Positions 58,800-60,153 of a stretch of DNA of 64,000 nt are shown in pieces. Source of the DNA: Allorhizobium borbori (GTDB taxonomy: Bacteria > Pseudomonadota > Alphaproteobacteria > Rhizobiales > Rhizobiaceae); NCBI RefSeq assembly GCF_014196535.1, contig NZ_JACIDU010000013.1:62001-126000 (forward strand), in the 5' to 3' direction. A program made the translations under genes and the position numbers. The notes below the pieces were generated by a model that saw only the letters and a list, made by a program, of their open reading frames with translations, ran no database searches and was not told where the DNA came from. Positions within the stretch are counted from its first letter, which is position 1. The number at the start of each line of letters is the position of its first letter.

Positions 58800-59897
58800 T
58801 CAGTGCGTTGCACCCATCGCCTCTGCTTCCCGTTCCTTGCGGTTGTGCCGCACGGAGGCCCAGAAGGAGATGCCGATGAGGCTTGCGCCGCCGAGACCGG
58901 TGATGACTTCCGGAATGTGGGCAAGCGTCTGCACATACATGATGACCGAGAGGATGAGCACCGCGTAGAACGCGCCGTGTTCGAGGTAGCGGTATTCGGC
59001 CAGCGTACCCTTTTCCACCAGCATGATGGTCATGGAGCGAACATACATGGCGCCGATGCCAAGGCCGATAGCGATGATGAACAGGTTCTGCGTCAGCGCG
59101 AAGGCGCCGATCACGCCGTCGAAAGAGAACGAGGCGTCCAGCACTTCAAGGTAGAGGAACGCGCCGAAGCCGCCCTTTGCCCCGGTTGCCGCGATCGACT
59201 TCTGCGACATGTCGAGCAGGCCGCCCAGCACTTCCACGGCGAGATAGGTGACGAGACCGTAGATCGCCGAGGTCATGAAGGTCACGGTGTCCTGTCCGTC
59301 GAGCAGGTTGGAGAACAACACGACGAGCAGGAGCACGATGCCGATTTCCACGCCCTTGATCGTTGCGGCGCGCGCCATCTTGCTTTCGAGCCACTGGATC
59401 CAGTGCACATCCTTCTCATGGTCGAAGAAGTAGGTCAGGCCGACCATCATCAGGAACGTGCCGCCGAAGGCTGCGATCGGCAGGTGGGCATCGGTCATGA
59501 TACGGGCATATTCCTCCGGCTTGGCGGCGGCCAGAACCAGAGCCTCCCAAGGGCCGATCTTGGCGGCGATGGCCACGATGGCGAGCGGGAAGATGATGCG
59601 CATGCCGAACACGGCGATGATGATGCCCCAAGTCAGGAACCGGTGCTGCCACTCGGGCGTCATGTCCTTGAGTTTGTTGGCGTTGACGATCGCGTTGTCG
59701 AAGGACAGCGAGATTTCGAGAACGGCGAGCACGACGCAGATGAAGAACACCGTGCCCATGCCGGCCAGCGTGCCGGTGGACGACCAACCGAGCCAGGCGC
59801 CGAGCGCAAGGCCGATGGCGGTGAAGGCGAAGGCCCAGGTAAAGTAGCTGAGCGTGGACTTGTGGGCCGCTGATTGCGGGTTGGATGACAGGCTCAT
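58800..59897 (-). CDS. DUF475 integral membrane protein, TerC-like
   Basis: A 365-residue protein with about eight hydrophobic segments. Two matching acidic motifs, EISLSFDNAIVNA (about residues 61-73) and EVLDASFSFDGVIGAF (about 251-266), lie in opposite halves of the protein; the same duplicated pattern marks TerC/Alx-type proteins, some of which export manganese. That suggests metal-ion transport, though I know of no direct proof for DUF475. GGGAGG precedes the ATG. The gene has its own strong promoter and a long structured leader, as metal exporters with riboswitches do. Confidence 0.8.
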   Translation of the reverse strand: MSLSSNPQSAAHKSTLSYFTWAFAFTAIGLALGAWLGWSSTGTLAGMGTVFFICVVLAVLEISLSFDNAIVNANKLKDMTPEWQHRFLTWGIIIAVFGMRIIFPLAIVAIAAKIGPWEALVLAAAKPEEYARIMTDAHLPIAAFGGTFLMMVGLTYFFDHEKDVHWIQWLESKMARAATIKGVEIGIVLLLVVLFSNLLDGQDTVTFMTSAIYGLVTYLAVEVLGGLLDMSQKSIAATGAKGGFGAFLYLEVLDASFSFDGVIGAFALTQNLFIIAIGLGIGAMYVRSMTIMLVEKGTLAEYRYLEHGAFYAVLILSVIMYVQTLAHIPEVITGLGGASLIGISFWASVRHNRKEREAEAMGATH

Positions 59898-59938
59898 CGG
59901 CTGACCTCCCGGAATTCAGGGGAAAGGGCAGGGACAAA

Positions 59939-60120
59939 CGAAAAAGGCACGCGGCCCGAGGCGCGCATGCGAAGCATGTTGCTTATGGTCATGGCAGACA
60001 ATATCCGCCGGCTTATTTGCAGGCGGTACCGACATCACGAGAGCGCCGTAAAAACTCTCGCCAGAGGGGCCCGGCACCAGGGTTCCATCCGCCGCGCTGT
60101 CGTACTGCGGCGGTAGCCTC
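59939..60120 (-). promoter_or_regulatory. Structured leader of the DUF475 gene with an internal terminator
   Basis: On the minus strand the leader starts with a closing helix AGAGG / CCTCT that encloses CCGCCGC / GCGGCGG and CCC / GGG, then follow hairpins CGAGAG / CTCTCG and CCGCC / GGCGG, then CATGC / GCATG, and finally a GCGCGC / GCGTGC stem (59947-59966) with TTTTT after it. That last element looks like an intrinsic terminator placed before the ribosome site. The CATGC hairpin overlaps the base of the terminator by one or two bases, so the two could exclude each other. The layout is that of a transcriptional riboswitch; I do not find the GGGGAGUAG mark of yybP-ykoY and leave the class open. 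Confidence 0.6.
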
Positions 60121-60125
60121 TGTTA

Positions 60126-60153
60126 ATTGTATCAGCTTCGGCCTTTCGTCAAG
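60126..60153 (-). promoter_or_regulatory. Sigma-70-type promoter of the DUF475 gene
   Basis: On the minus strand CTTGAC (60153-60148) and TACAAT (60131-60126) are separated by 16 bases, close to the rhizobial consensus CTTGAC-N17-CTATAT. The start site should be near 60119, at the first base of the leader helix. Confidence 0.7.

Follow-up and report, generated by a model that had tools for sequence, protein, structure and literature searches.

How the DUF475/TerC-superfamily gene of Allorhizobium borbori is controlled by the leader preceding it is the question raised by the locus considered here, which is located on the reverse strand of the window, that is, of the 64,000-nt stretch of DNA that was analysed (contig NZ_JACIDU010000013.1, positions 62,001–126,000, forward strand) and in which all coordinates are given (Table 1). 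The original prediction was that of a structured cis-regulatory leader in front of a TerC-like DUF475 gene. The assignment of the gene is confirmed, its product matching PF04332 with 355.7 bits and PF03741 with 75 bits in a Pfam scan, and the regulatory leader is likewise supported. Comparison of related leaders establishes that a predicted Shine-Dalgarno (SD) hairpin, almost invariant in sequence, is located directly 3′ of a terC RNA, and that the stop codon of a putative upstream open reading frame (uORF) overlaps the DUF475 start codon. We suggest, with a probability of roughly 55%, that the terC RNA gates translation of this uORF, which would be coupled to translation of DUF475 and would probably oppose a terminator located within the uORF.

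Table 1. Features of the terC–DUF475 locus, listed in the direction of transcription (window coordinates).
Feature	Position	Strand	Basis or remark
Promoter-like CTTGAC-N17-ACAATT	60125–60153	-	CTTGAC conservation; start predicted near 60120
5′ hairpin P0	60089–60113	-	folds in 59/60 leaders
terC RNA (RF03067)	60020–60082	-	Rfam, 64 bits (cut-off 39.9)
terC P1	60078–60071 with 60032–60025	-	pairs in >99% of cells, 60 leaders
terC P2	60061–60055 with 60043–60037	-	pairs in >99% of cells, 60 leaders
terC core	60072–60062 (GGGCCCCUCUG) and 60036–60031 (GAUGUC)	-	
P3 hairpin, holding SD-like GGCGGA (60009–60004) of the uORF	60005–60026	-	GCCGGCGGA invariant
uORF, 32 codons, MTISNMLRMRASGRVPFSFVPALSPEFREVSR	59894–59992	-	stop TGA overlaps DUF475 start ATG (ATGA)
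CATGC hairpin overlapping the terminator 5′ arm	59966–59978	-	seen in sequence
Terminator-like hairpin with U tract, within the uORF	59941–59970	-	terminator scan, covariation
DUF475/TerC-superfamily membrane protein, 365 aa (controlled gene)	58800–59897	-	Pfam; NCBIfam PRK14013 family

Scanning the whole window with Rfam 15 yields two matches above the cut-offs, one being a tRNA and the other the terC RNA, which is matched over the full length of the model (positions 1–59 of 59) on the same strand as the DUF475 gene, located 122 nt downstream. Since this is a clear match to RF03067, the proposal that the leader represents an undescribed RNA class has to be abandoned; the statement that it is not a yybP-ykoY element was correct, RF00080 giving no match between 59850 and 60300 at E values of up to 5. 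The only other match of the leader at these E values, to Giardia U6 RNA (14.7 bits, cut-off 100), was rejected as due to chance. When folded alone, the 215-base leader is no better than its shuffles (z = -1.12; 28 of the 200 fold as well), and the evidence on the leader is therefore comparative.

For this comparison, RF03067 places were matched by eye with DUF475 places: in the 199 Rhizobiaceae genomes surveyed, DUF475 is found at full length in 65 places, of which at least 41 have a terC RNA directly upstream. The first leader set (n = 41) consists of 40 Rhizobiaceae terC–DUF475 places and one locus from another family (L026), with one duplicate (G364, contig 16) omitted; the leader of locus L144, the core of which differs by one letter, was read by hand. 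The second set (n = 80 named loci) comprises Rhizobium, Ensifer, Shinella, Mesorhizobium, Pseudochrobactrum and others, and the terC core is present in all 80. The two sets share genomes, and merging of identical leaders resulted in 107 distinct leaders with a uORF, while 60 non-redundant DUF475 leaders, excluding L026, constitute the alignment set. Twenty of the 24 DUF475 places devoid of terC among the Rhizobiaceae matches listed were fetched as a control. Because the leaders and genomes are related, counts of leaders do not represent independent events.

The terC RNA is widespread in these bacteria. An RF03067 match is present in 60 of 199 genomes of the order Rhizobiales (97 matches, 94 of them over the cut-off, with up to five per genome), in at least 114 of 199 Rhizobiaceae genomes (at least 111 over the cut-off) and in 31 of 240 genomes of Alphaproteobacteria. 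The source genome itself contains two, the second being located 27 nt upstream of another TerC gene. All 97 loci of the order set were examined, and at 69 of them a downstream protein belongs to a single BLAST-linked cluster, and all five cluster members that were checked are DUF475 or TerC according to Pfam. Representatives at the remaining loci belong to Tim44, TFIIB-type zinc ribbon, DUF4112, TerB, HlyD/CusB adaptor, YegS/DAGK kinase, Na/Ca exchanger and ATPase-zeta-like families, and six downstream proteins scanned there yield no Pfam family. The non-TerC genes following terC (loci L070, L080, L093, L079, L071, L004, L020, L013 and L033) are possibly a clue to the ligand of this RNA. Divergent pairs of terC RNAs likewise occur, facing TerC and DUF4112 in L253 (G517), TerC and Tim44 in L254 (G372), and TerC on one side in L251 (G430) and L252 (G518). 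In Pacificitalea manganoxidans (L250), by its name a manganese oxidiser, a terC RNA is located directly 5′ of a plasmid-borne DUF475 gene. The manganese riboswitch RF00080 exceeds its cut-off in none of 151 Rhizobiaceae genomes; weaker, sub-threshold matches are found in six of these (G222, G320, G303, G228, G300 and G216).

With its short core of two nearly fixed strands, the terC RNA would also be suited as the binding site of a protein or a small RNA controlling initiation at the uORF, rather than as a ligand-binding riboswitch. Consistent with such a site, our search of the open-licence literature identified no work on a ligand or the mechanism of the terC RNA, but the number of copies in a genome, reaching five, and their location mostly upstream of TerC-type genes are compatible with either reading, and we regard control by a protein or small RNA as rather unlikely. 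Two further observations concern the fold of the domain. The loop of P2, CGGCGC (60048–60043), is invariant in the 60 aligned leaders and pairs with the 5′ strand of P1 in the predicted fold of the window's leader, which might represent an anti-P1 state. An expression platform common to terC loci, with the P1 3′ strand being sequestered by a repeat of the P1 5′ strand further downstream, was rejected: at the 70 of 97 order-set loci having a chosen start codon, the mean pairing run is 5.34, versus 5.29 for shuffles and 5.10 for the reversed arm.

Directly 3′ of the terC domain, the sequence GCCGGCGGA forming P3 is invariant across the 60 non-redundant leaders. Since 98.6% of its cells are paired and compensatory changes are absent, P3 is supported by conservation and not by covariation. 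It shares alignment columns with the outer P1 pairs, columns 58–60 being able to pair in either P1 or P3. The hairpin contains an SD-like site, GGCGG[AC], which is located 8–13 nt upstream of the chosen ATG in 106 of the 107 leaders, the choice of ATG having required a distance of at least 4 nt from the site. Forcing P1 raises the computed accessibility of the SD from a mean of 0.157 to 0.214, with an increase in 33 of 60 leaders; in the window's own leader it falls from 0.135 to 0.044.

The uORF following this site occupies the greater part of the terC–DUF475 interval and had been missed in the earlier reading. In set 1, a short ATG-initiated frame follows terC at 39 of 41 places (exceptions, L138 and L144), and 36 of these frames terminate with ATGA or TRATG, the other three overlapping the gene by 8–26 nt. 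In set 2, the uORF is present at 78 of 80 loci (76 with ATGA, one with TRATG and one with GTGA), the two exceptions (L213 and L235) being assemblies labelled Rhodobacteraceae. Among the 107 distinct leaders the uORF varies from 23 to 45 codons, and the stop/start overlap is kept in 104 of them, across 13 different lengths; in shuffled spacers the overlap arises in 18% of cases with a random frame and in 54% with the observed frame kept. It is the start codon, reading frame and overlap that are conserved, as one would expect if the act of translation matters. Among the 20 control loci devoid of terC, none has such a uORF, a terC core or any Rfam element upstream of DUF475; one of them (L163) holds the word GCCGGCGG. 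Both terC and the uORF are present on pSymB of Sinorhizobium meliloti strains 1021 and ml45. One annotated gene table of an S. meliloti pSymB, incomplete by design, lists DUF475 and not the uORF, and the main text of a paper on the S. meliloti small proteome (PMC10117765) mentions neither terC nor DUF475. A contig titled Bacillus subtilis SK6B4 (L204), which is probably mislabelled or contaminated, carries a terC–uORF–DUF475 locus of the rhizobial type.

Locus L144, one of the two exceptions in set 1, has the same SD hairpin directly 5′ of the DUF475 start and no uORF, and on plasmids of the Rhodobacterales Paracoccus, Salipiger and Pacificitalea terC is located 27–30 nt before the DUF475 start. 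These layouts suggest that an older translational switch acted directly on the DUF475 gene and that the uORF came to lie between the two later. The possibility that a uORF is a general feature of terC loci was considered and rejected, as the frames at other loci encode unalike peptides: among 34 other terC loci with the start codon at least 58 nt downstream, 13 have a frame ending near the start and seven a 4-nt overlap. We thus treat the uORF as a feature of the DUF475 subtype. The AUG within GAUGUC was likewise rejected as a start codon, there being no preference in overlaps (5/70) or in frames (23/28/19); a further frame beginning at this AUG is seen in L250.

Within the uORF, a G+C-rich stem is followed by CTTTTT (59970–59941, letters checked). 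The terminator-like stem that had been proposed before the DUF475 ribosome site is thus present, but inside the uORF and not in an untranslated leader, and the CATGC hairpin described as overlapping its base is present as well; comparable CATGC-like pairing is found in most of the 60 leaders, in a count made without a control. A terminator scan detects three terminator-like sites, with 0.5 expected, two of these being the present hairpin in two registers. (i) The stem shows two-sided changes at all 8 of its pairs in the 60 leaders, with 79.7% of the cells paired and 20% unpaired, (ii) none of 500 shuffles reaches the joint covariation score of P1, P2 and the terminator stem, and (iii) synonymous shuffling weakens the folding of this region in 49 of 60 leaders (mean z = -0.91). 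A strict terminator form is present in 49 of 107 leaders, versus 35 of 535 shuffles, and is lacking in the other 58.

A hairpin that covaries and carries a U tract downstream of terC is what would be expected for a classical transcription-attenuating riboswitch, in which a ligand bound to the terC RNA directly favours or prevents termination and the open frame is incidental. Such an incidental frame is, however, difficult to reconcile with a uORF of which the start, frame and stop/start overlap are conserved as described above, and fewer than half of the leaders exhibit the strict terminator. Moreover, many other terC RNAs are located only ∼20–35 nt from the start codon, leaving little room for a terminator, and the same short distance is found for the three Rhodobacterales DUF475 genes. 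Taken together, we consider direct attenuation to be unlikely. The implied picture of a noncoding, transcription-terminating leader is itself doubtful, because a conserved uORF spans most of the terC–DUF475 stretch and holds the terminator.

Turning to the peptide, eight close pairs of uORFs exhibit 35, 31 and 50 changes at codon positions 1, 2 and 3, respectively, which is weak evidence for a peptide under selection. That the uORF encodes a sensing leader peptide, which alone controls the terminator through ribosome arrest or slow codons while terC sets basal initiation, appears very unlikely: residues do recur (MP at positions 6–7 in 71 and HA at 10–11 in 61 of the 107 leaders) and uORF-dependent attenuation exists in S. 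meliloti according to excerpts of PMC12218461, but there is little codon-position bias, the middle and the length of the uORF vary, the codons for the recurrent HA lie in one arm of a hairpin, and the uORF is found only together with terC.

At the 5′ end of the leader, the letters of a promoter had been read as consensus-like. CTTGAC (60153–60148) and ACAATT (60130–60125) are present at a spacing of 17 nt (letters checked), and CTTGAC is kept upstream in 98 of the 107 leaders, mostly 78–83 nt 5′ of the core, but a consensus scan of the leader returns no sigma-70-type site (0.1 expected); our promoter assignment is based on this conserved position. Successive hairpins do occur along the leader, as had been anticipated. 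The closed 5′ domain of the original prediction (CAGAGG/CCUCUG) is not conserved, CAGAGG being found upstream in only 3 of 107 leaders. Both of the proposed TACCGCC(G/T)GCA copies exist (60115–60106 and 60028–60018), but only the second lies in a conserved hairpin, P3; the first is located in a 5′ stem with variable letters, and the repeat was thus rejected as an element.

What is maintained in this region is a hairpin, P0, which folds with an energy below -5 in all but one of the 60 leaders, with differing stems. Its loop in the window, CGACA (60102–60098), is able to pair with UGUCG (60034–60030) of the terC core, a shifted form comprising five pairs. At least five contiguous pairs with GAUGUC can form in 49 of 60 leaders, versus a mean of 19.6 and a maximum of 30 in 200 mononucleotide shuffles, and four other target words give no excess of loop pairing in the same leaders. 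At other terC loci, pairing with GAUGUC shows no excess (31 of 92, versus 34 in shuffles). GACATC is found upstream in 72 of the 107 leaders and in none of these 92 loci; in the 60-leader set it occurs in 30 and is unpaired in 24. The 92 other loci exhibit some excess for TGTCGG (61 versus 46.2, maximum 62).

Based on position and conservation, we suggest for gating of the uORF by terC that the state of the terC domain would set the access of ribosomes to the SD of the uORF. Ribosomes terminating at the uORF stop codon could then re-initiate on DUF475 at the overlap, as the overlap itself and the example of Mycobacterium tuberculosis ppe2 suggest, and ribosomes translating the uORF would prevent formation of the internal terminator hairpin; a single switch would thereby act on both translation and read-through. 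With less confidence, the P0 loop might pair with the GAUGUC core and either compete with or stabilise the terC fold. As most of the controlled genes belong to the TerC superfamily, our guess for the signal would be a metal ion, for instance Mn2+; excerpts of PMC10550928, PMC12096827 and PMC13274385 connect TerC proteins with manganese. It is tempting, albeit speculative, to envisage for the Rhizobiaceae and near relatives a metal-responsive terC riboswitch acting through a relay, in which the P0 loop sets the state of the core by pairing with it, the core gates the SD of the uORF, and translation of the uORF leads to re-initiation on DUF475 and suppression of the terminator. We consider this complete scheme less likely than not; if true, the leader would be an attenuator driven by a riboswitch and dependent on translation, with two layers and wide conservation.

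Comparison with known systems places these findings in context. The terC RNA family, reportedly originating from Weinberg et al. 2017, is already catalogued, and the window's leader resembles RF03067 in its full-length match and in its location before a TerC-superfamily gene; it differs in that the 59-position model excludes P0, the SD hairpin, the uORF and the internal terminator, and the uORF arrangement hence lies outside the Rfam model. The yybP-ykoY manganese riboswitch (RF00080) also precedes TerC-family genes, but the terC leader is distinct from it, having no RF00080 match. An excerpt of PMC13274385 likewise places terC downstream of a Mn-sensing element. In S. meliloti, a related bacterium, the SAM-II riboswitch of metA (excerpts of PMC9373788) holds an SD, is followed by a terminator and acts on translation at a distance; it shares with the terC leader an SD associated with the RNA element, a first AUG, a terminator-like stem downstream and, as proposed here, action on translation at a distance. 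In metA, however, a second AUG in frame is the real start, whereas the terC leader contains a separate, out-of-frame uORF overlapping DUF475.

The nearest precedent is the B12 riboswitch–uORF system of M. tuberculosis ppe2: there, the riboswitch holds the SD of the uORF uPPE2, and coupling occurs by termination-reinitiation (excerpts of PMC11260477). In both systems the SD is located beside an RNA element, and the stop codon of the uORF shares the tetranucleotide AUGA with the start codon that follows. The ppe2 system differs in having another RNA, B12 as the ligand and a single species, and the same excerpts describe no internal terminator; the terC–uORF arrangement is instead conserved across many genera, its coupling being a prediction from sequence. 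A riboswitch link between terC and a uORF was not found in the open-licence literature. The example indicates that a leader taken as noncoding can conceal a conserved, putative relay gene, and the comparison provides the orphan terC RNA with a laboratory strain carrying such a locus, S. meliloti 1021 (pSymB), and with a concrete candidate point of action, that is, the translation start of the uORF.
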